Of a DNA stretch of 38,919 nucleotides, positions 1-32,550 are shown piece after piece (position 1 is the stretch's first letter; each line of letters opens with the position of its first letter). The stretch comes from Candidatus Avelusimicrobium vaccinum (GTDB lineage: Bacteria; Elusimicrobiota; Elusimicrobia; Elusimicrobiales; Elusimicrobiaceae). Position numbers and translations under genes: made by a program. Below the pieces are notes generated by a model. The model saw only the letters and a program-made list of their open reading frames with translations, was not told the origin of the DNA and did not search any database. The DNA lies in assembly GCA_902794895.1 (NCBI GenBank), contig CADBIY010000012.1, positions 1 through 38,919 of the forward strand, read 5' to 3'.

Positions 1-49
1 TACGATATATAAAAACTGCCTTGAATAGACAACTAAAGATTGCATTTTT

Positions 50-79
50 ATTATAGCATGGGCTACAAAAATAGCGCAA
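50..79 (-). promoter_or_regulatory. Extended -10 promoter directed out of the left edge
   Basis: On the minus strand there is TGCTATAAT (58 to 50) with TTGCGC (79 to 74) 18 bases upstream as a possible -35. It would start transcription at about position 43, toward the left edge, for a gene outside the window. The box is identical to the extended -10 seen at 516-524 and 2926-2934, which supports it. Alternatively the upstream operon simply reads through. Confidence 0.5.
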
Positions 80-509
80 GCAAAAACCACCCCTGTGATA
101 ATTGAATAAACGGATCATCCGGCCGCAATTGCTGTGCGCGGTCCACATAGGTCATGGCCTGTTTAAGCAGTCCGCGTTGAAGTGATAAGTACGCAAGTTC
201 CAAATTGGCCGCACCCGCCAAGTTAGAATCGGAAGCATTTTCAAAGGTCTTGAGCGAAAAATAACACTCGTCACTTTCCCCTTCCACGCATTTTTGCATA
301 ATGGGACGTAATTCTTCCGGGAGGGTATAATCCATCACTGTACGGTGAAGAATCACATCATTTAATTTACTGTCCATCCGGGTAGCGGTCAAAGACGATT
401 TGGTGACCGTACGTGCCGTATCTGCCGCCGACTGCCCGGCAGGAGTTGTCTGTGCGCGTAGCAGACACGTAAGACCTATAAAAAGCAATAGGACGATTGA
501 TCGTTTCAT
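63..509 (-). CDS. Small exported protein with a TPR-like C-terminal part
   Basis: No named family is recognised. The 149-residue product begins with Lys-Arg and a hydrophobic run ending Leu-Leu-Arg-Ala before Gln-Thr-Thr, a typical signal peptide of about 20 residues, so it should be exported. The last 50 residues are helical and alanine/leucine rich (NLELAYLSLQ, then AMTYVDRAQQLRPDDP), resembling one tetratricopeptide-type helical pair. Two cysteines near the middle could form a disulfide. I chose the ATG at 509 because the signal peptide starts there. An in-frame ATG at 536 would add nine residues, but a -10 box (516-524) lies inside that extension. No Shine-Dalgarno sequence precedes 509, so the message may be leaderless. 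The gene lies 68 bases downstream of another small secreted protein on the same strand. Confidence 0.7.
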   Translation of the reverse strand: MKRSIVLLLFIGLTCLLRAQTTPAGQSAADTARTVTKSSLTATRMDSKLNDVILHRTVMDYTLPEELRPIMQKCVEGESDECYFSLKTFENASDSNLAGAANLELAYLSLQRGLLKQAMTYVDRAQQLRPDDPFIQLSQGWFLLALFL

Positions 510-515
510 ATAGAA

Positions 516-524
516 ATTATAGCA
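516..524 (-). promoter_or_regulatory. Extended -10 box just upstream of the 63-509 gene
   Basis: TGCTATAAT reads on the minus strand from 524 to 516. The hexamer ends six bases before the ATG at 509, so initiation would fall at or beside the start codon. The -35 region has no good match, as is common for extended -10 promoters. The box lies in the short gap after the upstream gene, so it could give a leaderless transcript. Confidence 0.45.
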
Positions 525-577
525 AAATTCCCCCATTCGGAGAGCGGATGTACGGTGTAGCGTAAAACAAAAAATAA

Positions 578-1234
578 TTAACGGGCTGATTTTACGGCCG
601 GAAATTGAAATTTAACCATTTCGGGAATCCAAAATTGTTCCACAGATGCAGGTGTATTGGCACCCGATTCGGCCGTATAGAAGAAGAAATCTATATCCTG
701 GTTGTTACCAAATTTACGGATTTCTAATTTTTCAGTAAATCCGTGTTCATCTTCCGTCCCCACATACAGCGAAGCAAACACTTTACCGGATTCTGTACCG
801 ACACAGAAAAGCCTGCCCTGCGCGGAATGTTGTTGATAGAAAACGCGTTGCCGCAAACACTCCTGCCGCGTGTGTTCGTAGCGTTCTTTTGCCGTTACGT
901 CCAAAAGTTCCGTTACCGGGTTTACGGAAAGTAATATAAAATTTTTTAGCGGAGCCTCCCATAAACCGCGCTTGAGGCCCCATTTCAACTCCTGCCATAA
1001 ACTAGTTTTTTGAACCCATTTATAATAAAAGGAGTTATTGGCTGTTTTTTCGTCCAACACCAACTCCAGCCCCGCAAATTGAACGCGTAGCGGATTAAAG
1101 TTGGCCGACGTATGGACGGCATTTTCTATTCGTTTTGTTAAGACTGTTTGTTGGACATTTTGCAGTTGCTTGGCAGGGGTTAAAGTTGTAGCCAAAAGCA
1201 AAAGAGCCATGGTCCCTATAACAATTTTTTTCAT
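578..1234 (-). CDS. Secreted hypothetical protein
   Basis: I do not recognise a family. The 218-residue product starts with Met-Lys-Lys and a hydrophobic run of leucines and alanines up to about residue 21, a clear Sec signal peptide. The mature part is mixed alpha/beta, rich in aromatic residues (FYYKWVQ, LWQELKWG, DIDFFFYTAES), with two cysteines about 22 residues apart that could pair in the periplasm. A GAGGA Shine-Dalgarno sits about eight bases before the ATG at 1234, and a promoter with TTGCTG and TATACT boxes (1272-1299) lies upstream. It is followed on the same strand by the small exported protein at 63-509, so the two may share a transcript. Nothing in the sequence points to an enzymatic role. 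Confidence 0.75.
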   Translation of the reverse strand: MKKIVIGTMALLLLATTLTPAKQLQNVQQTVLTKRIENAVHTSANFNPLRVQFAGLELVLDEKTANNSFYYKWVQKTSLWQELKWGLKRGLWEAPLKNFILLSVNPVTELLDVTAKERYEHTRQECLRQRVFYQQHSAQGRLFCVGTESGKVFASLYVGTEDEHGFTEKLEIRKFGNNQDIDFFFYTAESGANTPASVEQFWIPEMVKFQFPAVKSAR

Positions 1235-1271
1235 TATTTTCTGTCCTCAAAGCAAAAACAAGCCTACTATC

Positions 1272-1299
1272 AGTATACCAAAAAAAGCATACACAGCAA
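1272..1299 (-). promoter_or_regulatory. Sigma-70-type promoter of the 578-1234 gene
   Basis: On the minus strand TTGCTG (1299 to 1294) is separated by 16 bases from TATACT (1277 to 1272). Initiation near 1265 would leave a leader of about 30 bases containing the GAGGA ribosome-binding site. A GACCTA hexamer (1309-1314, plus strand) lies just upstream of the -35. Confidence 0.5.
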
Positions 1300-1348
1300 G
1301 GGCCAAAAGACCTATGTATGTTTAGGACTCCCCTTCCGCCCAAATTAT

Positions 1349-1375
1349 AAAAAACCCCCCGGTATAAACCGGGGG
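1349..1375 (-). terminator. Rho-independent terminator after tig
   Basis: CCCCCGG (1356-1362) and CCGGGGG (1369-1375) form a seven-pair GC stem with a six-base loop. On the minus strand the hairpin is followed by a run of six T (complement of 1349-1354), as expected for termination of the trigger factor transcript. The gene ends 26 bases before it. Confidence 0.85.
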
Positions 1376-1400
1376 ATACTGCTATAAAGACGGGTTTTCC

Positions 1401-2687
1401 TTATTTATAGCTTGCGTTGGATTTTAAAAAATCAAACACTTTGCGTTCGGTAAGCGTGGCCAAAATGTGCGCTTTGCGTTCTTCAAAGAATGCTTTGATT
1501 TTCTTTTCATCACTTTTATTTTGGGCAGAAGCAATACTTTTATCCAATTCGGCCTTCCAGTCCGCTTCCACGGCTTCTAAATTTTCTTTTTTGGCAATTG
1601 CATGCACAATATACCCAATACGAAGATCTTTTTCTACCGTCGGACGGATGCGTTCTTCAAACGCTTTGTGTTGTTCCGCCGTCAGTTGGTGCGGATCTAA
1701 CTGTGTCATATTATGCACAAAGTTATGCAAAGAAGATTCGGTATATTCTTCCACTAAACTTTGCGGCAACTCAAAATTGTTCATTTTTACTAAGTGATTT
1801 TCAATTTGGGCTACTTCGTCGCGATTGGATGCTTGTTTTGCTTCATTATCCAAACTTTCTTTCACTTTGGCTTTCAACGCATCTAACGTTTCAAAACCCA
1901 TATCTTTGGCAAAACTGTCATTCAATTCGGGTACAATTTTATTTTTAATATCATCAACGGTTACGTGATAAGAAACCGTATCCTGTCCGTCTTTGCTTTC
2001 AATATCCTTCACGTCGCCTTTTTTAAGTCCTTTTAACCCCTCGGCTAAACCAGGCATGGTTTGCGGAGCGGCCATATCGACTAATTCGCTATCGGCAGAG
2101 AGTTTATAATCGTCTGTACCGTTACGTTTGCCGGTGTAATGGATAACTGCGTAGCATTTGTCATCAATGACGGATCCTTCGGCAGCACTTTCCAAACGGG
2201 CATTGGCATCTAATACCCGGTCTAAATTTTCTTTTACATCCGCTTCGGTAGCAGTTTCCGGCTTTTTGGTAATTTCAATGCCTTTATAATCTTTTACTTC
2301 AAATTCCGGAGCCACATCTACCGCGATTTCAAATGTAAACGGTTTTCCATCATTAAAATTAGCAAAATCGCCTTTGGTTAATGTAGGAACGGCAACCGGG
2401 TCCAATTTAGCATCTTCCACGGCGGCATTGATGGCGGCTTTTACGGTTAAATCCAAGGCACGTTCCTTAATATGGCCTGCAAAATTTTGTTTGACTAAAT
2501 CAAGCGGTACTTTCCCGGCACGAAATCCTTGCATTTGGGCACGGGATTGCACTTGAACAGCCGCATTTTGAAAAGATTTGGTAACCAGTTCCGGTGTAGC
2601 CTCTACTGATAAAGTAACCCGGCATCCTTCTTTATTAAGTTGTTTGGTTTTTACCTCGCCGCTTTGGGCAGTTTTGAAGATGGACAT
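1401..2687 (-). CDS. tig: Trigger factor, ribosome-associated chaperone and prolyl isomerase
   Basis: Trigger factor docks at the ribosomal exit tunnel and shields nascent chains. The N-terminal third has the ribosome-binding signature (QGFRAGKVPLDLV, the family GFRxGKxP loop). The middle (roughly residues 150-240) has the FKBP-like pattern with MPGLAEGLKGLKKGD, and the rest is the helical C-terminal chaperone arm. Length (428 residues) is normal. I chose ATG at 2687, where the usual Met-Ser-Ile-Phe beginning starts. A GTG at 2699 is in frame but overlaps the GAGGAG ribosome-binding site, so it is unlikely. The two tRNA genes just upstream on the same strand leave no separate promoter visible, so tig is probably transcribed with them and processed. 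A hairpin terminator follows. In many bacteria tig neighbours clpP and clpX, whereas here clpP lies 20 kb away. Confidence 0.95.
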   Translation of the reverse strand: MSIFKTAQSGEVKTKQLNKEGCRVTLSVEATPELVTKSFQNAAVQVQSRAQMQGFRAGKVPLDLVKQNFAGHIKERALDLTVKAAINAAVEDAKLDPVAVPTLTKGDFANFNDGKPFTFEIAVDVAPEFEVKDYKGIEITKKPETATEADVKENLDRVLDANARLESAAEGSVIDDKCYAVIHYTGKRNGTDDYKLSADSELVDMAAPQTMPGLAEGLKGLKKGDVKDIESKDGQDTVSYHVTVDDIKNKIVPELNDSFAKDMGFETLDALKAKVKESLDNEAKQASNRDEVAQIENHLVKMNNFELPQSLVEEYTESSLHNFVHNMTQLDPHQLTAEQHKAFEERIRPTVEKDLRIGYIVHAIAKKENLEAVEADWKAELDKSIASAQNKSDEKKIKAFFEERKAHILATLTERKVFDFLKSNASYK

Positions 2688-2731
2688 CTTATAATACACT
2701 CCTCTTTATTGCCGGCATAGCCGGTAAAATA

Positions 2732-2813
2732 TGGACGGAGAGGGACTTGAACCCTCACGGTGTGAACCATACGCTCCTAAGGCGTACGCGTCTACCAGTT
2801 CCGCCATCCGTCC
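2732..2813 (-). tRNA. tRNA-Leu (anticodon UAG)
   Basis: The minus strand folds as a class II tRNA of 82 bases: acceptor GGACGGA pairs with TCCGTCC, the anticodon loop is CTTAGGA (anticodon TAG), there is a long variable arm, and the T arm contains GGTTCAAGTCC. The discriminator is A and the CCA end is not encoded. It reads CUA-type and related leucine codons. It is 24 bases downstream of tRNA-Lys and 45 bases upstream of tig. Confidence 0.95.
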
Positions 2814-2837
2814 TTGATATTTTTGAAATACTAAATG

Positions 2838-2910
2838 TGGGCCATGTGAGGCTCGAACTCACGACCTTACGCTTAAGAGGCGTCTGCTCTACCAACTGAG
2901 CTAATGGCCC
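2838..2910 (-). tRNA. tRNA-Lys (anticodon CUU)
   Basis: A 73-base cloverleaf on the minus strand: acceptor GGGCCAT pairs with ATGGCCC, the D arm is GCTCAGTTGGTAGAGC, the anticodon loop is CTCTTAA (anticodon CTT), and the T arm has GAGTTCGAGCCTC. The discriminator is A and CCA is not encoded. It is the first gene of the tRNA-tRNA-tig transcript, with a promoter 16 bases upstream. Confidence 0.95.
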
Positions 2911-2925
2911 TATTAAGATAATGCT

Positions 2926-2954
2926 ATTATAGCAAATAAAAGATATACCGGTAA
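2926..2954 (-). promoter_or_regulatory. Promoter of the tRNA-Lys, tRNA-Leu, tig unit
   Basis: On the minus strand TTACCG (2954 to 2949) is followed after 17 bases by TATAAT (2931 to 2926), itself preceded by TG as TTTGCTATAAT. Initiation would be near 2919, nine bases before the tRNA-Lys 5-prime end, which is a sensible distance for a tRNA promoter. Confidence 0.7.
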
Positions 2955-3030
2955 ACCCCGGCACCTGGTTTAGGAAGTTTCTTTATTGTAACATATTTTG
3001 TGTTTAATCCGTTTATTTTAGATGTTATAT

Positions 3031-3060
3031 TTGACATTGTTATATAATAAGCGATACAAT
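3031..3060 (+). promoter_or_regulatory. Promoter of the DUF885 gene
   Basis: A perfect TTGACA (3031-3036) is separated by 18 bases from TACAAT (3055-3060). Initiation near 3067 would give a leader of about 31 bases with an AGGAA ribosome-binding site before the ATG at 3098. It is divergent from the tRNA/tig promoter. Confidence 0.7.
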
Positions 3061-3097
3061 AAAATTGTTTTTAAATTATCATATAGGAACGTACTTT

Positions 3098-4957
3098 ATG
3101 AATCATACAAAAATACATTACTTTGCTATTTTGGCCGGTTGTTTATTGTTTACAACACCTCTTTATACGCAAAATATCATGGATATGGACAATATCGATA
3201 CCATTTTGCAGGATACTGCCTTTAATGATCTGGCAAATCGGTATGCATCTGTTTTATTGTCTTTTTTCCCGGAACGGGCAACCCGGTTAGGTTATTCGTC
3301 GGCAAATACCAAATTAGACGATCGGACCCCTCAACATAGTGCCCAGGCGTTGGCTGCTTTGCACAGCATTCGCCAACAACTCGAAACCATGGAAACAGGT
3401 ACACTGTCTCCGTCTAAAAAAGCAGACCGGAAACTGTTGCTTAATGACTTGGATTATATGATTTGGTTAGAAGAGCAGGATCGTGTTTCCTCGAACCCGT
3501 TATATTATGCGGAAGCATTTGATGCCATCTATGATTTGCGGCTGAAGCAAATGGCTTCGCCTAACCGCCAACGGCTCGATATCCTAGCCCGTCTTCACGC
3601 ATTATCCAAAGTGGCGGACCAAGCCGAAACTTATCTAACCCATGCGCCGGCTTTTCAAGCCCAAATAGCCATGGAAAAAGCCTATTATGCCTTTTTATCT
3701 ATGGATGATTTGACCGAGTTCTTACTCAAAACCTCCCCGGATGAAGACACTTCGTCCCAGATTAAACAACAAACGGCCCAAGCCAAACACGCTATTAAAC
3801 GTTTATTTGATTTGTTTAAGCAACTATCCCGTGCGGAAAATACATACGATTTCCGGGCAGGGGAGGAGGCATATAATTTTCTATTAAAAAACCAATACCA
3901 AATTACTGAAAAATCGGAAAAACTATTGGCTCAATTAGAAAAGAAGGTGCAAGAGGCACAACAAGAGTTAACAAAATCGTTGCGTCCTTTTATACAGGAT
4001 ATAGAAACCGAAGAAATCACGGTGCTAGACGGTCAAGAAAACGAAACAGATCTTGCTGTCCAAAAAAAGGAGTCAACTTCTGCCAAAACAAAAGATAATG
4101 AACCTCAGGGGTTGCTAAATGCACAAGATTTTTATGCGGTCACCAAACGTATTATTGAAGTAGAACCGCCGGAAGATCCGTTAACAGCCTTAGCCCAACA
4201 GGCCGAAGCTGCCGCTGCCTTTTTTAATGAACAAGGTATTTTTCCGCAAAAATCCTTTAAATTTAATGTCGTGGCTATGCCCCAGTATTTTGCCTATTTC
4301 AAAGCCTATTTATTAGTCCCCCCCTACGGTAATCAATATAATTCACATACTGATTTTTTCTTGCGTTTACCGAATGGAAATCAATTATCCCAACAAGAAC
4401 AGTTAAACCGAGATTTTAACCAACCGGTCCAAAAGTTAATGCTTACCGAAGAATTAATCCCCGGTAGGTATTATCAAACAGTAGCCACGGCCAACTTATC
4501 TGCCCAGCGCCGTTTTTATCCTTCGAAAACTATACAAAACGGATGGAAAAAATACGCACAACAAGTTGCGCTGGAAAAAGGATTTTTGATTACCGATGAA
4601 GATCTTTTATTCACGGCTTGGGAGCACTATATCCAAGCCTTGCAGGCACTGGCCGATTTTAAATTGCATACACGTCAATTCTCCTACACGGATACACTGG
4701 AATTTCTTACCTTGGAACATGGTCTGGAACAGGATCAAGCCGACACATTGATTAAACAAATCGTATCGGCCCCGGCAGAGGCATTAAGTTATCAAGCCGG
4801 GTTTGATGTACTACAAAATTTGCGCCATAAATATCAAAAGAAACAAGGTAAAAAATTCAAAGAAGAAACCTTTCATTCTTATCTGTTACAAGCCGGGAAC
4901 CTTACCCCGGATGAACTGGAAAAAGAAGTAGCCCGTTTCTACAAGGAATCAAAATAA
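3098..4957 (+). CDS. Exported DUF885-family protein with a degenerate metal site
   Basis: DUF885 proteins are long helical, M2/M32-like predicted metallohydrolases. The match is clear at the start (RYASVLLSFFPERATRLGY) and near the end (a LADFKLHTRQFSYTDTLEFL stretch, then a segment beginning APAEALSYQAGFDVLQNLR, then FHSYLLQAGNLTPDELEKEV). In typical members the core carries HExxPGHH and, downstream, GWxxYxE. Here the first motif reads E451-E-L-I-P-G-R-Y458 and the second reads G482-W-K-K-Y-A-Q488, so the expected metal-binding histidines and the downstream glutamate are replaced. A charged insert lies near residues 305-345. The start at 3098 has AGGAA nine bases upstream and begins a signal-peptide-like segment (about 25 residues, ending Leu-Tyr-Thr-Gln). 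The 619-residue length is normal. It stands alone, with its own promoter and terminator. It is probably exported and possibly non-catalytic. Confidence 0.85.
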   Translation: MNHTKIHYFAILAGCLLFTTPLYTQNIMDMDNIDTILQDTAFNDLANRYASVLLSFFPERATRLGYSSANTKLDDRTPQHSAQALAALHSIRQQLETMETGTLSPSKKADRKLLLNDLDYMIWLEEQDRVSSNPLYYAEAFDAIYDLRLKQMASPNRQRLDILARLHALSKVADQAETYLTHAPAFQAQIAMEKAYYAFLSMDDLTEFLLKTSPDEDTSSQIKQQTAQAKHAIKRLFDLFKQLSRAENTYDFRAGEEAYNFLLKNQYQITEKSEKLLAQLEKKVQEAQQELTKSLRPFIQDIETEEITVLDGQENETDLAVQKKESTSAKTKDNEPQGLLNAQDFYAVTKRIIEVEPPEDPLTALAQQAEAAAAFFNEQGIFPQKSFKFNVVAMPQYFAYFKAYLLVPPYGNQYNSHTDFFLRLPNGNQLSQQEQLNRDFNQPVQKLMLTEELIPGRYYQTVATANLSAQRRFYPSKTIQNGWKKYAQQVALEKGFLITDEDLLFTAWEHYIQALQALADFKLHTRQFSYTDTLEFLTLEHGLEQDQADTLIKQIVSAPAEALSYQAGFDVLQNLRHKYQKKQGKKFKEETFHSYLLQAGNLTPDELEKEVARFYKESK

Positions 4958-4973
4958 ACTTGTCAAACAGTAA

Positions 4974-5003
4974 AAACTCCCCCGCTCTTCGGCGGGGGAG
5001 TTT
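4974..5003 (+). terminator. Hairpin terminator after the DUF885 gene
   Basis: AAACTCCCCCGC (4974-4985) pairs perfectly with GCGGGGGAGTTT (4992-5003) around a TCTTCG loop. The stem is very stable and ends in a short T run. Because both arms carry A/T ends it can act on both strands. It begins 16 bases after the stop codon. Confidence 0.8.
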
Positions 5004-5145
5004 CACATACGGGTAAAACCGAAGCAAAGCGGAGTCCTGAAAATGTCTTTATTCAGGACCTATTTCCCCTAAGGGCTTAGATCCTTCTTAACTACCTACC
5101 GCACGCAACTTTCCACGCTTTGTGTTTGCTGTTTTTAAACAAAGT

Positions 5146-5172
5146 GTCATTCCAAACTTGATTTGGAATCTT
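5146..5172 (+). repeat. Short palindromic repeat, copy 1
   Basis: The unit reads GTCATTCCAAACTTGATT followed by TGGAATCTTCC. Its centre (5150-5168) is a perfect seven-pair hairpin with loop CTTGA. It resembles the small dispersed hairpin repeats found between genes in several bacteria. Its partner at 5214-5243 is in the opposite orientation. Confidence 0.5.
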
Positions 5173-5213
5173 CCGCTTTTATTCTTGCTGTTTCGTAACT
5201 ACCACAACATTCG

Positions 5214-5243
5214 TTGAAGATTTTCAATCAAGTTCAGGATGAC
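5214..5243 (-). repeat. Short palindromic repeat, inverted copy 2
   Basis: On the minus strand this reads GTCATCCTGAACTTGATT followed by GAAAATCTTCA, matching the copy at 5146-5172 at GTCAT, AACTTGATT and AATCTTC. The internal hairpin has decayed (CCTGAA against TGAAAA), so this copy no longer folds well by itself. The two copies can pair with each other. Confidence 0.45.
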
Positions 5244-5321
5244 TTGATGATTTATCTTAACAACCGGTTCATCGGTAAAACCTTAACAAAACCCCATGCC
5301 TAGCCGGGAGTTTCACAACAC

Positions 5322-5359
5322 ACAAAGAAACCCCGGGCTTACGCCCGGGGTTTCTTTGT
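5322..5359 (-). terminator. Terminator of the giant J-domain gene
   Basis: A perfect 17-pair inverted repeat, with arms 5322-5338 and 5343-5359 (core AACCCCGGGC) around a TTAC loop, ends 13 bases from the stop codon at 5372. The minus-strand downstream arm ends GGGGTTTCTTTGT, giving the T-rich tail. Confidence 0.85.
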
Positions 5360-5371
5360 ATTAGCACTATT

Positions 5372-8300
5372 TTAATAAGCAGATTCTGCCGTGTTAAGTA
5401 ACCTTACGAATTTCTCTTGCAATTCGTTAAAAAACTGTTGGATTTTTTTCTGCCGCCGTTCTTTCGTTTTTGTTTCCAGTTCCGGCAACAACGCTTGAAA
5501 GACTTGTTCCTGTTCATCCAACATATACTGAATACTGGCAACGCAAGAATCCGAATATAGTACAGCACTACTAATCATTTGACTTCTTACAGCATAAAAC
5601 TGTTTTAAATAGTCAGGTTCATGAGACTGTAAAATATTACTCGCCTGTAACATTACGTTCTTTTTTATCTGTTGCAACTGTGCCCGTTTTTGGGGTTCGC
5701 TGAGTTCATTTGAGGCAACAATCTCATCCATCCGTTTTAAAGCCGGTTCCAACAAAGACACCAGTGGATCTCTCACCTCTTCAGGATAAATTTCCATATA
5801 AGTGGTCAAGAAATTATGATACACATAACTGAAATAGTCTGCTTCGTCCTCAATATTTTCGAGTTCATAATAAATTCCAGGGTCTTGTGCTTGGGCAGCA
5901 GCCGCACTTCCAGCATCCATACCCAAAGATTTCAATAAGCGTTCCAGTTGTTCTGATAATTTTTTACCGGCTTTTTCTATTAAGTTGCCGACTTTACTAT
6001 CGCTTAATTTTAAATTAGACACAATACCCGTAACCTCTTTAATATACCGGTCATATAATTCCTCTACTTGTTTTTGCACCGCCACCGGGGCCGAAGCATA
6101 TGCGGCCATAAAACTTTTCTTTTCAGCAGTCACTTGAGCCACTGTTGCACTCCGTTGCAACTGCAGGGCAAGTTGCCTATTTAAGCGTTCTATTTCTTGT
6201 TGTTGTTCTTCTTCCGTTTTATTTGCATTTAATACAGATTCTATTTCTTGCAGAAATTGCTTCCAATATTCATCCGCCTCTTTAGCAAATGTTTCGCCAT
6301 ATTGTTGCCTTATTTGAGAAATACTTTCCTGATATTGTTGCCGTAACGGTTTCATGGCCGCCTCAATAGATTCTTGTTTTAATTGGTCTTGCACGGCACC
6401 CATCACAGCATCATTCGCTAACATGTAAGAAGCATTTTCCCGAAGCATTTGACGGTTATCTTGATTTATCAAATGCAATTTCCACGGGCTAAACGGTTCT
6501 AACACATTATGCCAGGTTTGGTAGAGCACTTCTCCCATCGAGGAGCCCGCAAAAGACAGATACGGCATGCCCAACCACGATCCTACCAACGGTTCCACGG
6601 AGGACACACGTTCATATAAGGACGGAAGCGTCGGTGGCAGATTTTGTTCTTTTGCTTTTTGCTCTAACGCCTCTAACCCCGCTTGGAAAGGCGCAAGAAC
6701 TTCTTTTTGTTCACTTTCTACCTGTGAAGACAATGACTGGCGGAAATGATCCTGTAATAAGAAATCCGCCCCGTACATAGCCGGCAGGAAACGCGTAATG
6801 CTGTAATAACTTCCTTGCCAATAACTCGGCAACTTCGCTATATTCACTCTAAACGGATTAAACATTCCATTATCTTCCATGTATTTCTGCACATTACCGA
6901 CTACATCACTTAAATCTTTGCTGGCAGAGCCGAAAGCCACTCCGTTACTGCCATCAAACACACCGCCTTTGAGCGTAATCGCCAGGGATTGTCCGGCTTC
7001 ATTTTCTAACATAGCCGTTCCGCCCAAGTCTAACATGCGGTCAAAGGCGGCCCTTTTCTCCGGATTACGCAACACATCATAGGCCTCCGCTACCCGTTTA
7101 TACATTGCCTCCATATTTCCGCCTTTATCCGGGTGAGTCAATATGGCCTGACGTCTGAAAGCTTGTTGAATTTCCTTATCCGTAGCTGTCCGCGCAACGC
7201 CTAAAATTTCGTAATAGTTTTCCACCACCTCATTGCCTTTTTTGGATAACACTCCCGACACATGGGCTTGGTTGCGCACTAAACCGGAATGCAGATTCAT
7301 AAATTCTTGTTGGGAAATCTGCACCCAACCCTTTTCCGCCCCTTCATATTTCCAGTATTTGGTAGCCCCCGGCATATGGCTGGAAAGCCAATTTTGCGCA
7401 GATACTTTTTGTGCAGCTTGGGCCGTCATATAGGCCTCCGCCCGGGCCTGACGTAAAGCCGCCCCGGTAAGAGGTTCAAATTTAAAGCCATTGTCGGCAG
7501 CGGCCGACAACATGCGTTCCCAATCCCCCAGAGTTTGAATTCCATTTTCTAATCCTAACTCACGCATATTTACCGTTACCGTTCTCTTCCCTTGGGTTAA
7601 AACGACGGCTTCAATTTCTTTACGGGCAGGTCCTAAACCGAACAACCGGCGGTTATACATATCGGTCCATTTGGTCCAAGGACGTAAAGCCGGTACCATT
7701 TCATACACCGTTTCCACCTTGAGGGCATGCGGCGTAGAAGTAGCCGTTACTCCCGGGCCCGGTAAAGCCAACTGTCCTTCGGTTACGGAAGTAGTTGCTT
7801 TCATTCCTCCGTTAGTAACTGCTGTAATCGTCCCCGCCTGATTTTGAAATTTCTTCACACGGTTTGCAAGGACAACGGCTTCGCGTAATTCCCGGGCACC
7901 GGCTGCTAAACCGGCCATCCGTCCGGTACGGGCTGTTCTTCCGGCGACTTTAATAGCGCGCGGCAAGGCTTTTACCCCGGCAATTCCGGTACGGAAAATA
8001 GGACTCACAAATTTACCGATAATGCGTAAAGCCCCGTCAAAAGCCACCCAGGTTAAAATTTCCACCAACACGGCTCCCATCACACGGCCTACTTCCTTGG
8101 CTTTTAAAATATCGTTCCCCTTATAATTATCATCAAGGACACATTTATAATAAAAATCTCCGGGCGGTAATTGACTTATTTTACGTGTGGTGGTTCTGCC
8201 ATCCAATTTCTCTTCCCAGGAAAGCAAGTGGTCCACGGCAGGGTTTACCTTTTTATAAACCGTTCTGGGCGTCTTAAAGGCCCTGTGCATTTTAGCAAGT

Positions 8301-9964
8301 CCCTGCATGAATTGTTTATGTTGTTCAACATCTGTAAATCCAAAAGATTCAAAATATAATTGCGCCATATTGCGCAGACCGGACACGCTGGATCCGAGGT
8401 TCTGTTGAACCCAGGCTCCATTTACATTCTTATATAAATTATCCTGATGTCCAATCGCGGAACGGCAGTAAATGCTTTCTAACGCATTCGCAAAATATTG
8501 CCGGTCTGCGGCAGACATATTCACCTGGTGTGCGCTAATTAAAAATGAGGCCAATTCCACCGCCGTTACTACACTGGATGTAGTTTGCGTTTTAACATCG
8601 GCGGCTTTTTTTAACAAGGTAATCAAATTTGTCAAACGTGCACCTTGCAAATCTTCTTCCGTCAAATTTTGTTGCAAAGAAGCCGCAACCATAGAATATA
8701 ACAGGGTAGAGGTTTGCAGGTAATTGCCGTAAGGAATATCATTCATAGTCGTATACCGCTCTTGCGGAGTCAGCTTCTTGGTCAAAGTGTCCAAGCGATT
8801 CATGAACATCGATAGATCAGGCCAGGCATCTTTGGAAATATGGGTTCCATCCTCCTCAATCAGTATGCCGGATTTTTCACGAAGTAACCCGAACGGTATG
8901 GCATAGTTCAGAGTCATTTGAAGTTGCATAGAAACAGACGAAGGATCATCATTTTTTATGTTAGCACTCAATAACTCTATGTCAGAAATAAATTTATCAA
9001 ATTCCCTTTGTCCCAAACCGCCCCCTTTCTCTTTTGACCCGAACGTCAGAATGCTATCGTTGTTATAATGATAAAAAATATCTTTATGATGGCCGTAAAG
9101 AATTTTAAGTTCAAAGATAGCAAGATTCCACAGCATCAGTCGCAGACTGCCAATTGCACGTATGTCATTAACAGACCGGTTGAAAATATCGGATTTATTT
9201 TCCAAAAAAGCCAAACGATATAAAGCGCGCTGTTCCAGTTCGGAAGCATAAAACGCCAACCCTTCCAACACGTCCTCATCTGTTATATTCATTGCGGATT
9301 GGAACCAAATACTTAAGGCTTCTGCAGCGACTGCCGTTACCACCGGATCATATCCCGAGGGATCATACGGATCCATAAAATCGATTAACTCTCCAAACTC
9401 AAAATCAGGACTGTTAAGACGTGATGTTAATTGTGTAATGACCCAGTTTTCAAATAAACCTTGCTGATCACGCCAAGTAACCACCGTTTTAAATCCCGCA
9501 CCCACCCGGGTTTCTTGATGCAAATAAGGATCTCTAGGAGCCGCCGGCCGGGCGGGTTTAGAAGATCTAGGGGTAAACGGAACCGGTTGTATGGGTCTAC
9601 GTATAGCGGTAGACTCGGAAATGGCTTCGGTTTGGATTTGCATAGGTCCGGCCTCTTGATGTGCCGCTCTACGTCCGCGTGCCGCAAAACCTTTTCCGGA
9701 GTTTTTTTTAGCCCCCTGTTGATGACGGCAGACAATCTCTTTGGCAAGGTCTGTCTGCCGGAAACGATCCGCCGCGCGTAATCTTTCATCGGTAAGGGTT
9801 TTATCAGGTTCACACGCCTTGTTGGAGTTGCTTTGCACTTGAGAACTCAATTGCTGGCTAATAGATTGCGTAGTCGGCACAGCGGCCCGAACGACGGGAG
9901 CAGGAAAAATAACCTCTAACAAAAACACAACTGATAAAATACGGGAAATCCATTGGCGAAACAT
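5372..9964 (-). CDS. Giant exported protein (1530 aa) with an internal DnaJ-type J domain
   Basis: No full-length family is recognised. The N-terminus is a signal peptide (hydrophobic to Val-Val-Arg-Ala, about residue 27). A basic, proline-rich linker follows to about residue 145. A large helical region comes next, then a hydrophobic stretch around residues 625-653 (VMGAVLVEILTWVAF) that could be a membrane segment. A textbook J domain lies at about 916-977: YYEILGV, then the HPD motif at 944-946, then a KRVAEAYDVLRNPEKR helix. After about residue 1200 the chain is Gln/Glu-rich and probably coiled coil. The ATG at 9964 has AGGAG eight bases upstream. HPD normally stimulates DnaK-type Hsp70 in the cytoplasm, so a J domain behind a signal peptide is odd. 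With one membrane segment after the signal, the J domain could face either side. The gene is monocistronic, divergent from ackA, and has a strong terminator. Confidence 0.85.
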   Translation of the reverse strand: MFRQWISRILSVVFLLEVIFPAPVVRAAVPTTQSISQQLSSQVQSNSNKACEPDKTLTDERLRAADRFRQTDLAKEIVCRHQQGAKKNSGKGFAARGRRAAHQEAGPMQIQTEAISESTAIRRPIQPVPFTPRSSKPARPAAPRDPYLHQETRVGAGFKTVVTWRDQQGLFENWVITQLTSRLNSPDFEFGELIDFMDPYDPSGYDPVVTAVAAEALSIWFQSAMNITDEDVLEGLAFYASELEQRALYRLAFLENKSDIFNRSVNDIRAIGSLRLMLWNLAIFELKILYGHHKDIFYHYNNDSILTFGSKEKGGGLGQREFDKFISDIELLSANIKNDDPSSVSMQLQMTLNYAIPFGLLREKSGILIEEDGTHISKDAWPDLSMFMNRLDTLTKKLTPQERYTTMNDIPYGNYLQTSTLLYSMVAASLQQNLTEEDLQGARLTNLITLLKKAADVKTQTTSSVVTAVELASFLISAHQVNMSAADRQYFANALESIYCRSAIGHQDNLYKNVNGAWVQQNLGSSVSGLRNMAQLYFESFGFTDVEQHKQFMQGLAKMHRAFKTPRTVYKKVNPAVDHLLSWEEKLDGRTTTRKISQLPPGDFYYKCVLDDNYKGNDILKAKEVGRVMGAVLVEILTWVAFDGALRIIGKFVSPIFRTGIAGVKALPRAIKVAGRTARTGRMAGLAAGARELREAVVLANRVKKFQNQAGTITAVTNGGMKATTSVTEGQLALPGPGVTATSTPHALKVETVYEMVPALRPWTKWTDMYNRRLFGLGPARKEIEAVVLTQGKRTVTVNMRELGLENGIQTLGDWERMLSAAADNGFKFEPLTGAALRQARAEAYMTAQAAQKVSAQNWLSSHMPGATKYWKYEGAEKGWVQISQQEFMNLHSGLVRNQAHVSGVLSKKGNEVVENYYEILGVARTATDKEIQQAFRRQAILTHPDKGGNMEAMYKRVAEAYDVLRNPEKRAAFDRMLDLGGTAMLENEAGQSLAITLKGGVFDGSNGVAFGSASKDLSDVVGNVQKYMEDNGMFNPFRVNIAKLPSYWQGSYYSITRFLPAMYGADFLLQDHFRQSLSSQVESEQKEVLAPFQAGLEALEQKAKEQNLPPTLPSLYERVSSVEPLVGSWLGMPYLSFAGSSMGEVLYQTWHNVLEPFSPWKLHLINQDNRQMLRENASYMLANDAVMGAVQDQLKQESIEAAMKPLRQQYQESISQIRQQYGETFAKEADEYWKQFLQEIESVLNANKTEEEQQQEIERLNRQLALQLQRSATVAQVTAEKKSFMAAYASAPVAVQKQVEELYDRYIKEVTGIVSNLKLSDSKVGNLIEKAGKKLSEQLERLLKSLGMDAGSAAAAQAQDPGIYYELENIEDEADYFSYVYHNFLTTYMEIYPEEVRDPLVSLLEPALKRMDEIVASNELSEPQKRAQLQQIKKNVMLQASNILQSHEPDYLKQFYAVRSQMISSAVLYSDSCVASIQYMLDEQEQVFQALLPELETKTKERRQKKIQQFFNELQEKFVRLLNTAESAY

Positions 9965-10000
9965 AAAACGTTCTCCTTATTGTGTAAGATTTACATTAAT

Positions 10001-10006
10001 ATTATA
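10001..10006 (-). promoter_or_regulatory. -10 box for the giant J-domain gene
   Basis: TATAAT on the minus strand (10006 to 10001, in context TTTCTATAATATT) lies 36 bases before the ATG at 9964. No convincing -35 is seen at 16-18 bases. A palindrome at 10028-10045 overlaps where the -35 would be. Confidence 0.5.
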
Positions 10007-10027
10007 GAAATTTTTTAAAATTTATCC

Positions 10028-10045
10028 ATAGGTCATAAGACCTAT
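10028..10045. promoter_or_regulatory. Palindrome between divergent promoters (candidate operator)
   Basis: ATAGGTC-ATAA-GACCTAT is a perfect seven-plus-seven inverted repeat located in the -35 region of the J-domain gene and about 55 bases upstream of the ackA -10. It has no T tract, so it is unlikely to be a terminator. The half-site GACCTA also occurs as a direct pair upstream of clpP. Confidence 0.4.
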
Positions 10046-10098
10046 CATTTCAATAGGACTAACATCGCATATTTTTCCTGCCGATTTAATGATTTTTT

Positions 10099-10107
10099 TG
10101 CTACAAT
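10099..10107 (+). promoter_or_regulatory. Extended -10 promoter of ackA
   Basis: TGCTACAAT (10099-10107), preceded by a T run, is an extended -10. A weak TGCCGA (10079-10084) lies 17 bases upstream. Initiation near 10114 gives a leader of about 50 bases before the ATG at 10166. Confidence 0.6.
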
Positions 10108-10165
10108 GAAATAGAAAGTTATTTTCTTTCTACTTTTCCCGGCAGGGATCAATAAAGGATAAAAC

Positions 10166-11530
10166 ATGATTATTTTATTTTTAAACTGTGGAAGTTCCTC
10201 TGTAAAATACAGCGTCTATGATTGGGATCAAAAGAAAAGTCTTTGTGCCGGAACGGTAGAACGTATTGGCATTGACGGCTCTTGCATTACGCATGACCGG
10301 CCCGGTCTTCCTTCTTTTGAATTAAAACGCAACTGCAAAGACCATAAAGATGCAATCAATTTAGTAATTAATACGCTGACTGACAAAGAACATGGCGTCA
10401 TTGAAAATATTAACGTGATTAGCGCGGTTGGGCACCGTATCGTACATGGCGGAAAATTTGCAAAATCGGTTATTGTGGATGACAGCGTGGTGGCTGAACT
10501 TCGCAATATTGCCGATTTAGCCCCCCTTCACAATCCGGCTCACATCATGGGAATTGAAGCAGCCCGTTCTATTTTGCCCAACGTAACCCACGTATGTGTG
10601 ATGGATACGGCCTTTCACCAAACCATGCCGGCATCTGCCTATATGTACGCCTTACCGCGTAAATGGTATACCGATTACAATATCCGCCGCTATGGGTTCC
10701 ATGGTTCTTCCGTCTTATATACTTCAAGACGGGCCGCCGTACTCATGGACAAAAATGTAGACGAAATGAACACTATTGTCTGCCATATCGGGGCAGGGGC
10801 CAGCGTAACCGCGGTTAAGAACGGTCAATGCGTAGACACCAGTATGGGACTAACTCCGTTAGAAGGACTTGTGATGGGTTCCCGCTCCGGGGATATTGAT
10901 CCGTCCGTTTGTTTCCACATGATGCACAAATTGAATATGAGCCCGGATGAAATGTATACCATTTTAAATAAAAAGAGCGGTATGTATGCCCTGACCGGGG
11001 ACCGTTTTTCCGACCAACGCGATGTACGCAAAGGAACGGAAAACGGAGATGAACTTTGCAAGTTAGCCGTAGATGTACAAGCCCACCGTATTAAAAAATA
11101 TATCGGCGCGTATATGGCCGTGTTAGGACGGTTGGATTGCATTGTTTTTACCGCAGGCATTGGGGAACGTGCCCCGGATGTACGGGCCCGGGTGCTTAAA
11201 GGACTTGAAAACTTTGGTATTATTCTTGACGAAGAACGCAATGATGCGGCAAACACCAATAAAGCGGAATGCCGTATTTCTGCCGATAATTCTCCTGTAA
11301 AAGTATTTGTAATTCCCACGGACGAAGAAATTGTAGGTGTACAGGATATTGTGGCCTTACTGGCCGGAACGTATGACGTATACACAAAGTTCCGTTACAT
11401 TTTTCAGGAAAAAGAATACCGCAATAAATTGCGGGATGCGGCCTTTATTGAGGAGGTTAAAAAACGCCCCTTCTTATTAAAAGCAGCCGTTAACCTGCCG
11501 GATGCCTTGAAGCAGGAAAACAAACAGTAA
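10166..11530 (+). CDS. ackA: Acetate kinase with a C-terminal extension
   Basis: Acetate kinase interconverts acetyl phosphate plus ADP with acetate plus ATP, the energy-yielding end of mixed fermentation. The family signatures are present in order: NCGSSSVKY (Asn7), GHRIVHGG, MDTAFHQTMP, RYGFHGSS, SMGLTPLEGLVMGSRSGDID, FTAGIGER and VIPTDEEI. Two points are unusual. The second phosphate loop reads H-I-G-A210-G, where most members have G-N-G. The protein is 454 residues, about 50 longer than usual, because of a basic tail (YRNKLRDAAFIEEVKKRPF and onward). The ATG at 10166 has AAAGGA about seven bases upstream. Phosphotransacetylase is not adjacent. A hairpin terminator follows, then the phosphate-uptake genes. 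The kinase call is firm; strict substrate choice (acetate over propionate) is family-level inference. Confidence 0.95.
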   Translation: MIILFLNCGSSSVKYSVYDWDQKKSLCAGTVERIGIDGSCITHDRPGLPSFELKRNCKDHKDAINLVINTLTDKEHGVIENINVISAVGHRIVHGGKFAKSVIVDDSVVAELRNIADLAPLHNPAHIMGIEAARSILPNVTHVCVMDTAFHQTMPASAYMYALPRKWYTDYNIRRYGFHGSSVLYTSRRAAVLMDKNVDEMNTIVCHIGAGASVTAVKNGQCVDTSMGLTPLEGLVMGSRSGDIDPSVCFHMMHKLNMSPDEMYTILNKKSGMYALTGDRFSDQRDVRKGTENGDELCKLAVDVQAHRIKKYIGAYMAVLGRLDCIVFTAGIGERAPDVRARVLKGLENFGIILDEERNDAANTNKAECRISADNSPVKVFVIPTDEEIVGVQDIVALLAGTYDVYTKFRYIFQEKEYRNKLRDAAFIEEVKKRPFLLKAAVNLPDALKQENKQ

Positions 11531-11538
11531 TTTATGCG

Positions 11539-11570
11539 CGCCCGTTTGATTGTTTCAAACGGGCGTTTTT
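11539..11570 (+). terminator. Rho-independent terminator after ackA
   Basis: CGCCCGTTTGA (11539-11549) pairs with TCAAACGGGCG (11555-11565) and is followed by TTTTT. It starts nine bases after the ackA stop codon. Confidence 0.9.
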
Positions 11571-11618
11571 GCAAAAAGACCCCGTTCCCCACGGAACCAA
11601 TAAATAAAAGGAGCACGT

Positions 11619-12236
11619 ATGTTCTTACCCAGAGAGGAAAAATTTTTTGACTTGTTTGATAAGCAAGCAGAAAATATTGTACACGCAGCAGAATACTATC
11701 GCAAACTGGTGGAGGAAGGTGCATTTACCCCCGAAAATGTGCGCAAAATGCATGAATTTGAACACTACGGAGATGAACTAACCCATAACACCATCAATAC
11801 CCTAAACGAAACGTTTATCACCCCGTTTGACCGGGAAGATATTTTAGCCCTTGCAAACCGCTTGGATGATATTATTGATAATATCTATCTTTTAGCCAAT
11901 CGTTTTTATTTATATAAAATCTCTAAACCTACCGAATATAGTAAAAAATTAGCGGTACTTCTGGAACAAACTTCCCGCGCTTTACAAAAAGCATTGGTGG
12001 CTTTACGCAATAAAAAGAATATGACGGAAACTCTCCGGCAATGCGTGGAAATTAACCGTTTGGAAAATGAAGGAGACGTTTTGCGGGATGAAGCCATTTC
12101 CTATTTATTTGCTAATGAAAAAGATCCCATTATGGTTATTAAGCAAAAAGAACTGTACGAAATTGCCGAAACTACCAGTGATTTCTGTGAACATGTAGCC
12201 AACATGGTAGAATCCATCTTGGTAAAAAATAATTAA
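11619..12236 (+). CDS. DUF47/PhoU-like accessory protein of the phosphate transporter
   Basis: This 205-residue, all-helical, soluble protein belongs to the DUF47 (PhoU-like, TIGR00153) group that pairs with PiT phosphate transporters and is thought to regulate them or sense phosphate. The first part has the repeated E/D-rich helices of the family (KMHEFEHYGDELTHNTINTL) and a matching second half (CVEINRLENEGDVLRDEAI), the internal duplication typical of PhoU folds. These E/D-x-x-x-D motifs bind metals in PhoU relatives. A strong AAAAGGAG ribosome-binding site precedes the ATG at 11619. The stop is only 12 bases before the transporter gene, so the two form an operon. No promoter is obvious in the 48 bases after the ackA terminator, so some read-through is possible. 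Confidence 0.9.
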   Translation: MFLPREEKFFDLFDKQAENIVHAAEYYRKLVEEGAFTPENVRKMHEFEHYGDELTHNTINTLNETFITPFDREDILALANRLDDIIDNIYLLANRFYLYKISKPTEYSKKLAVLLEQTSRALQKALVALRNKKNMTETLRQCVEINRLENEGDVLRDEAISYLFANEKDPIMVIKQKELYEIAETTSDFCEHVANMVESILVKNN

Positions 12237-12248
12237 CAGGCGTACATT

Positions 12249-13298
12249 ATGGCATGGATTATCTTTTTAATTCTTTTGGCGCTCTTTTTTGATTATTTAA
12301 ACGGATTTCATGATGCGGCGAATGCTGTTTCTACCGTTATTTCCACACGTGTGCTTTCTCCACGTTTAGCGGTCTGGTGGGCAGCCTTTTTTAACTTCGT
12401 GGCGTTTTTGATTTTTGGTACGGCCGTAGCAAAAACAATTGGTGCTGGCATTATTCATACCCAATTTATAGACTCTAATTTAGTATTTGGGGCTTTAGTG
12501 GGTGCCTGTGGCTGGAACCTAATTACTTGGTGGTTTGGGTTACCATCCAGTTCTTCCCATGCATTAATCGGCGGGTTAATTGGAGCCGGGCTTCTTAAAG
12601 GTGGTCCGCAAGCGTTAGTAGCAAGCGGTATTATAAAAACGGTAGCATTTATCTTTATAGCACCACTATTAGGCTTTTTGTTTAGCACCGTGGTTGGGAT
12701 TATAGTGTTTAATATTGCCAATCATTTTAAACCTTCAAAAGTAGACGGATTTTTCCGTCGGGCCGAATTATTTTCCGCAGCGGCTTATTCCTTGGGATAT
12801 GGAGGGAACGACGCACAAAAAACAATGGGTATTATCAGCATGTTACTCGTTGGAGGTATGGCCGCGGGAACGGATGTTACTGCATTGCAAGAATTTTTCT
12901 ACTCGCATCAAGAATTAGCGGCCATTCATAACGGTGAATTTATTGTACCGTTTTCTGTGGTAATTATCTGCCAAGCAGCGATTGCACTGGGCACGCTCTC
13001 AGGCGGGTGGCGTATTGTCAAAACGATGGGCCAAAAAATCACGCGCCTTCGCCCGGTGGACGGTTTTTGTGCCGAAGCCGCTGCCGGTAGTTCTATTTTC
13101 ATTGCTTCTTTTTTAGGGATTCCGGTCAGCACGACCCACACGATTACAGGTGCTATCGTGGGTATTGGGGCATTACGCCGTTTATCCGGAGTACATTGGG
13201 GCGTAGCACGGCGCATTATATGGGCGTGGTTTATCACCATTCCAGCCGCAGCGTTAATTGCCGCCATTTCATACGGATTGCGCGTTTGGTTGTTTTAA
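12249..13298 (+). CDS. pit: PiT-family inorganic phosphate transporter
   Basis: A low-affinity, ion-coupled inner-membrane phosphate permease of 349 residues with about ten hydrophobic segments. The duplicated PiT signature is visible in both halves: GFHDAANAVSTVISTRVLSP near the N-terminus and YGGNDAQKTMGIISM in the middle. The matched halves LPSSSSHALIGGLIGAG and IPVSTTHTITGAIVGIG are also characteristic. Length fits the shorter bacterial members, without the large central cytoplasmic loop of E. coli PitA. The gene follows the DUF47 partner by 12 bases with a weak ribosome-binding site, suggesting coupled expression. A bidirectional terminator closes the operon. Substrate (phosphate rather than sulfate) is inferred from the DUF47 pairing. 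Confidence 0.93.
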   Translation: MAWIIFLILLALFFDYLNGFHDAANAVSTVISTRVLSPRLAVWWAAFFNFVAFLIFGTAVAKTIGAGIIHTQFIDSNLVFGALVGACGWNLITWWFGLPSSSSHALIGGLIGAGLLKGGPQALVASGIIKTVAFIFIAPLLGFLFSTVVGIIVFNIANHFKPSKVDGFFRRAELFSAAAYSLGYGGNDAQKTMGIISMLLVGGMAAGTDVTALQEFFYSHQELAAIHNGEFIVPFSVVIICQAAIALGTLSGGWRIVKTMGQKITRLRPVDGFCAEAAAGSSIFIASFLGIPVSTTHTITGAIVGIGALRRLSGVHWGVARRIIWAWFITIPAAALIAAISYGLRVWLF

Positions 13299-13308
13299 TT
13301 CTTGATTT

Positions 13309-13344
13309 AAAAAATACCCGGGTGAATAAACCCGGGTATTTTTT
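13309..13344. terminator. Bidirectional terminator between pit and the aminotransferase gene
   Basis: AAAAAATACCCGGGT (13309-13323) pairs perfectly with ACCCGGGTATTTTTT (13330-13344) around a six-base loop, with T tracts on both strands. It serves the convergent pit and nad operons, and the distal arm overlaps the stop codon of the aminotransferase gene. Confidence 0.9.
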
Positions 13345-14548
13345 AAATATTTTCTTTAATAGTTTGTGCGAGTCGTTTCAGTCCTTCCACTATTTGCTCC
13401 GGCGACGAATAGGAAAAATTCAAACGCATATCATTGCGCACATTACCGGACGGATAGAAATCCACCCCCGCTACAAACGCTACTTTGTTTTCAATGGCTT
13501 TGTGTAGCAGTTCACTGGCGTTCATATGCTTAGGAAGCGTTAGCCATAAGAAAAGTCCCCCTTCCGGGCGTGTCCAAGAAATTCCTTCCGGCATAACTTC
13601 TGCCAGTGTTTTAAGCATTAAATCGCGCTTTTGACGGTATACCCCGATTAATTCCTGAATATGTACTCGCAGACGGCCACTTTTTAAATATGCGGCGGTG
13701 GCTAATTGTAAAATAGGGGAAGAGCATAAGTCCATTGCTTGCTTTAAAATCACAAATTTACGGATGACATCTTCCGGACCTACAATATAACCCAAGCGGA
13801 AACCGGGCACAAAAATTTTAGAGAATGTAAACAAGGTAATTACATTTCCTTCCCCTTTATCCAACGCATAAAATGTCTTTGGGGAAACCCCTTCAAAACG
13901 CACTTGGCGATAGGGAGAATCTTCCAGCACAAAAGTATGATACTTTTTTACAATTTCTAAAATTTTAATACGGCGGTCTTCGGGAATAGTAGTGCCGGTC
14001 GGATTTTGGAAATCCGGCACTAAATAGACATATTTGCACCGACGGCCTTGCTGTTTCAAAGAGGCAAGTTCTTTTTCCAAGGCCTCCGGAATCATTCCAT
14101 ATTCATCACTATCTGCCCCAATAATATCGGCTCCTGCCACCTGAAATGCTTGCAACGCACCCAAATAAGTGGGAGCGGCGGTAATAATAGCATCTCCGGG
14201 ATTTACAAAAATCCGGGCTGCCATATCTAAGGCTTGCTGGGATGCCGACACCACCAATATTTGGGAAGAATTTACCGTAATATTTTCCGTATCTTGCAAT
14301 AATTTAATAAGTTCCGTTTTCAGTTTATCTTGCCCTTCCGTGGTGCCATATTGTAACGATTCCTTCGGATGTTCCAAAACTACCTGATTCATAATCTCAG
14401 CCACTTCTTTAACAGGGAATAAATTGGGATCCGGTAATCCGCCTGCAAATGAAATAATTTCAGGACGGGAAATAACTTTTAACAATTCGCGTATCGCCGA
14501 TGCCTTGGACCGGCTTACCACTTGGGAATACAACTCACTATAATTCAT
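13343..14548 (-). CDS. Class I/II PLP aminotransferase (2-aminoadipate/MocR-like type)
   Basis: A fold-type I pyridoxal-phosphate aminotransferase of 401 residues. It opens with ISFAGGLPDPNLFPV, the hallmark of the LysN/aromatic/MocR-type subgroup. The cofactor-binding YLVPDFQNPTGTTIP (Asn, Asp region), the lysine in FTFSKIFVPGFRLGYI (Schiff-base Lys) and the C-terminal arginine in NDMRLNFSYSSPEQI follow as expected. The ribosome-binding site GAGGA lies five bases before the ATG. It is 26 bases after nadC on the same strand, last in the lipoprotein-nadA-nadC operon. Its amino acid substrate cannot be read from sequence. Candidates are aspartate, aromatic amino acids, 2-aminoadipate or leucine. 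Its location may hint at aspartate metabolism, the NadA/NadB substrate, but no nadB is in the window. Confidence 0.88.
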   Translation of the reverse strand: MNYSELYSQVVSRSKASAIRELLKVISRPEIISFAGGLPDPNLFPVKEVAEIMNQVVLEHPKESLQYGTTEGQDKLKTELIKLLQDTENITVNSSQILVVSASQQALDMAARIFVNPGDAIITAAPTYLGALQAFQVAGADIIGADSDEYGMIPEALEKELASLKQQGRRCKYVYLVPDFQNPTGTTIPEDRRIKILEIVKKYHTFVLEDSPYRQVRFEGVSPKTFYALDKGEGNVITLFTFSKIFVPGFRLGYIVGPEDVIRKFVILKQAMDLCSSPILQLATAAYLKSGRLRVHIQELIGVYRQKRDLMLKTLAEVMPEGISWTRPEGGLFLWLTLPKHMNASELLHKAIENKVAFVAGVDFYPSGNVRNDMRLNFSYSSPEQIVEGLKRLAQTIKENI

Positions 14549-25961: not shown

Positions 25962-25966
25962 AAAGG

Positions 25967-26425: not shown

Positions 26426-26444
26426 AAAATCCTCTTCTTATTGA

Positions 26445-27757: not shown

Positions 27758-27766
27758 AATATACTC

Positions 27767-28285: not shown

Positions 28286-28288
28286 AGT

Positions 28289-28789: not shown

Positions 28790-28838
28790 ACAAAGCCCCT
28801 TGTATAAGTATTGCGCAAATTTGCGCAAAATTCAAGCA

Positions 28839-29474: not shown

Positions 29475-29483
29475 AGTTCCTCC

Positions 29484-30704: not shown

Positions 30705-30736
30705 AAACCCTCTTTACTACAAACTAGACCGCCGGC

Positions 30737-32476: not shown

Positions 32477-32518
32477 TTCCTATTCCTCTTTTTCAACGTG
32501 ATGCAATACTTACTAATT

Positions 32519-32550
32519 TTACCTGCCCCCAAATTGCCGGGGGCAGGTAA
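32519..32550 (-). other. Intra-operon hairpin between secretin and pilB
   Basis: TTACCTGCCCCC (32519-32530) and GGGGGCAGGTAA (32539-32550) are perfect 12-base complements around an eight-base loop. On the minus strand no T run follows, so it is not a classical terminator. It may slow polymerase, protect the upstream message, or be an RNase site that sets the ratio of secretin to motor genes. Confidence 0.6.

Follow-up and report, generated by a model that had tools for sequence, protein, structure and literature searches.

We describe a giant protein encoded in a 38,919-nucleotide stretch of DNA from Candidatus Avelusimicrobium vaccinum (GenBank assembly GCA_902794895.1, contig CADBIY010000012.1), hereafter called the window. 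The protein combines a Sec signal peptide with an internal J domain, and it belongs to a genus-wide family of signal-peptide giants that diverges extremely fast, by mosaic exchange and under purifying selection. As to its function, we regard it as about an even call that the protein spans the inner membrane and acts there as a giant J-domain co-chaperone recruiting DnaK, a proposal built on a predicted topology, a predicted DnaK partnership, and a putative envelope role. A sequence-only reading of the window had singled out the same gene and had offered, as one of two alternatives, that the J domain is returned to the cytoplasm. That return gains support here, whereas the hypervariable, mosaic family with its optional J domain had been missed. 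As far as the searched libraries show, the family, its architecture, and its mosaic hypervariability are undescribed, whereas the membrane-linked J protein as a kind is already known; a literature search found no publication on this giant-protein family.

A J domain within a fast-diverging family

The J domain matches Pfam PF00226 (DnaJ) over positions 1–63 of the 63-position profile (E 2.9e-18; 66.1 bits against a cut-off of 27.8). It is complete, with its HPD motif, K/R residues in helix II, and a KRAAFD end, and it lies internally, with 555 residues downstream of it. AlphaFold models it at a predicted local distance difference test score (pLDDT) of about 85–93, and Foldseek aligns it with solved J domains at a TM score (target) of up to 0.88. 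Judged by Pfam score, HPD motif, and modeled fold, the window protein is a J-domain protein (Hsp40, class C), for which stimulation of an Hsp70 is predicted. The sequence-only reading had thus placed a full J domain correctly, with the HPD position exact. It had also proposed structure prediction for this domain and for a hydrophobic segment further upstream; only the J domain was modeled with confidence.

A search with the window protein alone matched long open reading frames (ORFs) outside the J domain, in the same genus. A profile built from the pre-J part found relatives in 46 of the 66 genomes of the genus, and a broader family profile did so in 49 of 66, both profiles including the window sequence. 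Rebuilt without that sequence, the pre-J profile recovered the window protein at 118 bits (E 2.6e-38) over residues 4–282, 323–489, and 621–893; the region after the J domain gave no match on its own once the window sequence was left out. Profile searches returned no relatives in the 99 other Elusimicrobiota genera, three genomes of another genus of the same family included. Whether such a layout is restricted to one phylum had been asked by the sequence-only reading; our search covered Elusimicrobiota, within which the family is found in one genus of the 100 searched.

In total, 57 distinct members were collected, mostly 1050–2440 amino acids (aa) long. The named relatives are rumen, faecal, and gut metagenome-assembled genomes (MAGs) of Elusimicrobiaceae, UBA1436 among them, and the closest ones to the window protein are two tandem copies in one genome, G087 (56% and 46% identity). 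The second G087 copy (L114, G087:C51, 7240–8324) breaks off within its J domain, and the next ORF is unrelated and membrane-protein-like; this is probably an assembly joint rather than a real truncation (the MAG has 6% contamination). Furthermore, ORFs of 1782–2394 aa in four genomes (G097:C18, G016:C2, G079:C2, and G010:C164) have only the leader and the first 70–130 residues in common with the family, so the superfamily may be larger within the genus.

Most relatives examined carry the giant gene between phoH and nfnB, and this setting gives a measure of its divergence. Among 60 genome pairs with both genes at this locus, the median identity is 91% for PhoH (minimum 87%) and 29% (22–84%) for the giant protein. 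The ratio of nonsynonymous to synonymous substitution rates (dN/dS) over the whole gene is 0.15–0.30 in every close pair with measurable dS, and selection is therefore purifying; between the window gene and its G087 relatives, synonymous sites are saturated. The same values led us to reject positive selection as the sole driver of the divergence. Mosaic exchange can be seen in L086 and L088, which are 80–100% identical up to residue 600 and 88–98% identical after residue 950, with 18–52% in between, and in two tandem copies of genome G015, which are 57–90% alike in their last 270 residues and about 20–30% alike over most of the rest. Likewise, most of the difference between the J-bearing L082 and the J-less L083 falls in the block surrounding the J domain. 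One G015 contig (G015:C4, L038/L129) holds three tandem giant-gene copies (ORFs 2–4306, 4414–9423, and 9395–13999), whose C-terminal ~250 residues are 57–94% alike, with long other stretches at about 20–30% in one pair; the copies look as if ends had been exchanged among them.

In the window genome, phoH and nfnB adjoin, with 53 bp and a terminator between them, and the giant gene lies beside ackA. It is thus missing from its usual site and sits elsewhere, having either moved or descended from another lineage. The phoH–nfnB location is usual rather than strict, as other members of clear sequence kinship are also found elsewhere.

The J domain is an optional part of this architecture, present in 19 of the 57 members (in one of them cut short) and situated in the exchangeable middle block. 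HPD is intact in 15 of the 18 complete J domains, with APD in two (the G015 copies) and HTD in one (G022), and the median pairwise identity is 36% for the J domain and 22% for the N-terminal part. On a quick tree of the N-terminal part, which has some long branches and whose root is not known, the J-domain trait needs at least eight changes, three of them forced by well-supported branches. Since J-less groups nest within J-bearing ones and the site of the J domain is always the same, an old J domain that was lost repeatedly would be the simplest reading of this tree. One J-less member (L085, G004) has at the J-domain position the stretch LLEIKPGASAAEVEQVLNTFRTNWEAW, apparently a J domain that has decayed and has no HPD.

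Topology, DnaK, and competing explanations

According to the positive-inside rule, the positively charged flank of a membrane span marks the cytoplasmic side; disulfides are expected outside and reduced cysteines inside. The family has a hydrophobic segment at the same aligned place, with a Kyte–Doolittle hydropathy (KD) of at least 1.0 in 52 of 57 members and of 1.76 over residues 628–646 of the window protein. The mean net charge is +7.6 over the 40 residues that follow it and +0.6 over the 40 that precede it, with the same direction in all 57 members. Cysteines amount to 0.40 per 100 residues before the segment and 0.10 after it; their number before the segment is even in 43 of 52 cases, and the few after it are mostly single. 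Taken together, charge bias and cysteine pattern point to a first half outside the cytoplasm and a J domain inside.

The available partner points the same way. The window genome encodes one full-length Hsp70 (DnaK), which starts with MSKIIGIDLGT and has no leader, and no Hsp70 with a leader was found in this genome. Apart from it, Hsp70 is matched only over a short stretch of a 353-aa frame, which we take to be MreB. Working with the cell's own Hsp70 would require the J domain to be inside. J proteins of DnaJ and CbpA size are encoded elsewhere in the genome. We consider the J domain probably cytosolic, and we hold the estimate at that level because the segment would make a weak membrane helix and the members do not count as independent. 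A putative tie of envelope events to DnaK, as the sequence-only reading had suggested, can fairly be drawn from this. The hydrophobic stretch that it had placed at about 625–653 is real, but as a transmembrane helix it is only marginal.

Several observations weigh against this topology and the role attached to it. The segment has a family median KD of only 1.5, contains an acidic residue in many members, and shows a positive insertion energy; AlphaFold gives no confident model of it. A segment this weak could instead form a helix that is buried or amphipathic. Because the members share ancestry, 57 out of 57 does not amount to as many independent tests. Downstream of the J domain, a second hydrophobic motif is conserved as well, though weaker (median KD 0.84), making the side of the C-terminus uncertain. 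Finally, 38 of the 57 members have no J domain yet keep the same layout; the core function of the family therefore does not need DnaK, and the J domain cannot be the whole function. DnaK recruitment would then be an added output, and the core job would lie elsewhere, plausibly in recognizing something variable. Extending this idea, the family might be a hypervariable envelope recognition system (for phages, rivals, or kin) that diversifies as entire middle blocks are exchanged. The J domain would then serve as a swappable output module coupling recognition outside to DnaK inside. We offer this extension tentatively, as a minority possibility.

Under the proposed co-chaperone role, the signal peptide would start export of the protein. 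The helical half of about 600 residues would come to lie outside the cytoplasm, until the hydrophobic segment at 628–653 stops the transfer, with basic stretch, J domain, and coiled-coil tail staying on the cytoplasmic side. There, the J domain would bind the cell's only DnaK and stimulate its ATPase through HPD, and DnaK could thereby act at the membrane on whatever the cytosolic or outer part of the giant protein holds.

Other explanations start from the same features. The J domain may call DnaK to the protein's own unfolded precursor and so keep it fit for Sec, after which the whole protein would be outside and the J domain idle. A Sec signal peptide on a very long chain and a J domain with HPD speak for this self-chaperoning, but members of similar length (1842, 1702, 1653, and 1613 aa) do without a J domain, and complete translocation would be impeded by the conserved basic stretch that follows the segment; we deem it unlikely. 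The J domain could also be a structural hand-me-down, serving a scaffold protein as a folding module alone, with no Hsp70 work. The intact HPD in most complete J domains, kept across very deep divergence, and the standard, full-length match of the window J domain make this quite doubtful, even though the APD and HTD variants, the degenerate stretch in L085, and the full loss in many members are what it would lead one to expect.

Alternatively, the mature protein might be released or shown on the surface and act outside, for example, on an Hsp70 of gut protists or of the animal. There is a precedent in HopI1, a type III effector acting in plants (PMC6321325), and this idea draws further on the signal peptide, the host-associated genus, the fast mosaic divergence typical of proteins contacting other organisms, and the conservation of HPD although the genome yielded no leader-bearing Hsp70. 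However, a cytosolic J side is favoured by charge bias and cysteine pattern; the J domain is lost in most members, selection is purifying in every close pair with measurable dS, and no route into a host cell was found (none was looked for), all of which makes an exported J domain improbable. An assembly or gene-calling artefact, with leader, unrelated ORF, and J domain fused by chance, would be conceivable in a MAG but has next to no probability. It is refuted by relatives in 15 other genomes, where helical part, hydrophobic segment, and J domain follow one another as they do here, and the one open frame with promoter, ribosome binding site, and terminator also speaks against it.

The gene and the remaining regions of the protein

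The source genome is a 1.45-Mb Elusimicrobiaceae gut MAG (99% complete), with the giant gene on its contig 12. The gene forms its own transcription unit, one open frame with a promoter-like site, a ribosome binding site, and a terminator (Table 1). The 1530-residue ORF called by the sequence-only reading, with its Sec signal peptide and J domain, was recovered, and the strand, which had been left out, is the minus strand. Its claim of an own promoter and terminator also held, with the reservation that promoter-like sites are only mildly enriched over shuffled sequences.

Table 1. Coordinates of the giant gene and its features in the window
Feature	Residues	Position	Strand	Basis or remark
Whole gene, giant J-domain protein	1–1530	5372..9964	-	ATG-start ORF; leave-one-out family profile match (118 bits, E 2.6e-38)
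Promoter-like site TGGATA-16-TATAAT		10001..10028	-	Sequence pattern
Ribosome binding site AAGGAG		9973..9978	-	8 nt upstream of the ATG
Sec signal peptide, predicted cleavage after VRA	1–27	9884..9964	-	KD 2.03; leader common to nearly all start-bearing members
N-terminal all-helical region, predicted extracytoplasmic, HEAT/ARM-type solenoid-like	28–620	8105..9883	-	AlphaFold, VIA-align, mostly even cysteine number
Conserved hydrophobic segment, candidate membrane span	628–653	8006..8083	-	KD at least 1.0 in 52/57 members
Conserved basic stretch	647–707	7844..8026	-	Net charge +9 in 40 residues after the hydrophobic segment
Pre-J region, family motifs around LxxGIxxxxDW and FDYW..W	780–905	7250..7627	-	Family alignment, partial AlphaFold confidence
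J domain	916–975	7040..7219	-	Pfam, Foldseek, AlphaFold
HPD motif	944–946	7127..7135	-	Translation; kept in 15/18 complete family J domains
C-terminal helical region, probably coiled coil	1190–1530	5375..6397	-	Sequence composition; sub-threshold matches to helical families only
Intrinsic terminator, strong, 13-pair stem		4973..5004	-	Terminator of the giant gene

The signal peptide reads MFRQWISRILSVVFLLEVIFPAPVVRA, with AVP following the cleavage site (VRA before A), and the same kind of leader opens nearly all family members whose start is present. The N-terminal half was modeled as helical over most of its length (predicted TM score 0.52; mean pLDDT 52, with the best stretches at 70–85); both AlphaFold runs used alignments of 12 sequences and gave low confidence outside the J domain. 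VIA-align of this model to helical-repeat proteins gave Z scores of 8–10.6, which is below the trustworthy level for repeats, so that a resemblance to HEAT/ARM-type repeats in arrangement is suggested only tentatively. Foldseek with the same model returned no match at E 0.001 or better, and a profile of the N-terminal part matched no PDB sequences.

Outside the J domain, nothing exceeded the curated cut-offs in Pfam or NCBIfam, in line with the earlier statement that the rest of the chain matches no known family, which holds for Pfam, NCBIfam, and PDB. A known family for the whole protein was rejected as well, since Pfam, NCBIfam, PADLOC, and PDB profile searches gave nothing credible outside the J domain; the Pex19, DUF445, and PADLOC matches were weak, sub-threshold, and mostly in helical or coiled-coil stretches. 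A GYF-like domain upstream of the J domain, suspected by eye, was discarded because the pre-J region has no Pfam match, and a phage origin was discarded because the N-terminal part has no match in phage records.

Elsewhere in the window, the minus strand encodes a Lon-like protease (18755–21223) that ends in a C-terminal, histone-tail-like extension of ~40 lysine- and alanine-rich residues. Genes resembling those for pilins, secretins, and GspE/GspF are clustered at 24297–38918 (minus strand; type II secretion or type IV pilus) and represent a possible export route within the window.

Comparison with known systems

HEAT/ARM-repeat proteins (importins, VPS35, and CNOT9) resemble the N-terminal half in their helical-repeat arrangement, at Z scores up to 10.6 that stay below the trustworthy level, but the sequence profile of this half has no match in PDB. 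DnaJ and CbpA share the J-domain fold and HPD, whereas the window protein has no match to the DnaJ domains beyond J (66.6 bits against a cut-off of 377.2 for DnaJ TIGR02349 and 41.4 against 403 for CbpA PRK10266). TopJ of the mycoplasma terminal organelle is likewise a very large protein with a J domain; in TopJ, however, the J domain is N-terminal, and the window protein matches the TopJ profile in the J domain only (56.8 bits against a cut-off of 300). We know of no signal peptide in TopJ. HopI1 of Pseudomonas syringae is a precedent of a J domain leaving a bacterium, but it is type III secreted and carries a P-loop and PQ repeats, with the J domain as the only part in common (PMC6321325).

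DjlA comes with one membrane helix and a cytosolic J domain. Its J domain and DnaK are needed for Rcs induction, in which it probably loosens a membrane complex (PMC11709261), and a Caulobacter DjlA that lacks the membrane anchor assists an efflux pump (PMC10754441). The window protein would be similar in having one predicted membrane span and a J domain predicted to be cytoplasmic, which would likely bring DnaK to the envelope; charge and cysteine pattern favour such a tether, but the hydrophobic segment is weak. It would thus act in the manner of DjlA, recruiting DnaK to envelope complexes from the membrane, with its parts arranged in a different order. DjlA, on the other hand, is far shorter, has only a short N-terminus in the periplasm, and carries a TerB-like domain as well as a J domain at its C-terminal end (PMC11709261), whereas the window protein has an internal J domain, a large half before the membrane that is predicted to be exported, and several times the length of DjlA. 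Membership of DjlA was rejected by this layout and by the profile score (NCBIfam PRK09430, 20.3 bits against a cut-off of 162).

J proteins decide where Hsp70 acts. If the proposed topology is true, an event outside the cell would be able to direct DnaK inside through a J protein that crosses the membrane and has a large exported half. To our knowledge, DjlA gives the only outline of such direction in bacteria. In addition, the family offers one locus that has diverged to about 29% identity, compared to 91% for the gene next to it in the same genomes. Its hosts are uncultured gut bacteria of which almost no envelope biology is known, and for these the family supplies a defined gene for tests.
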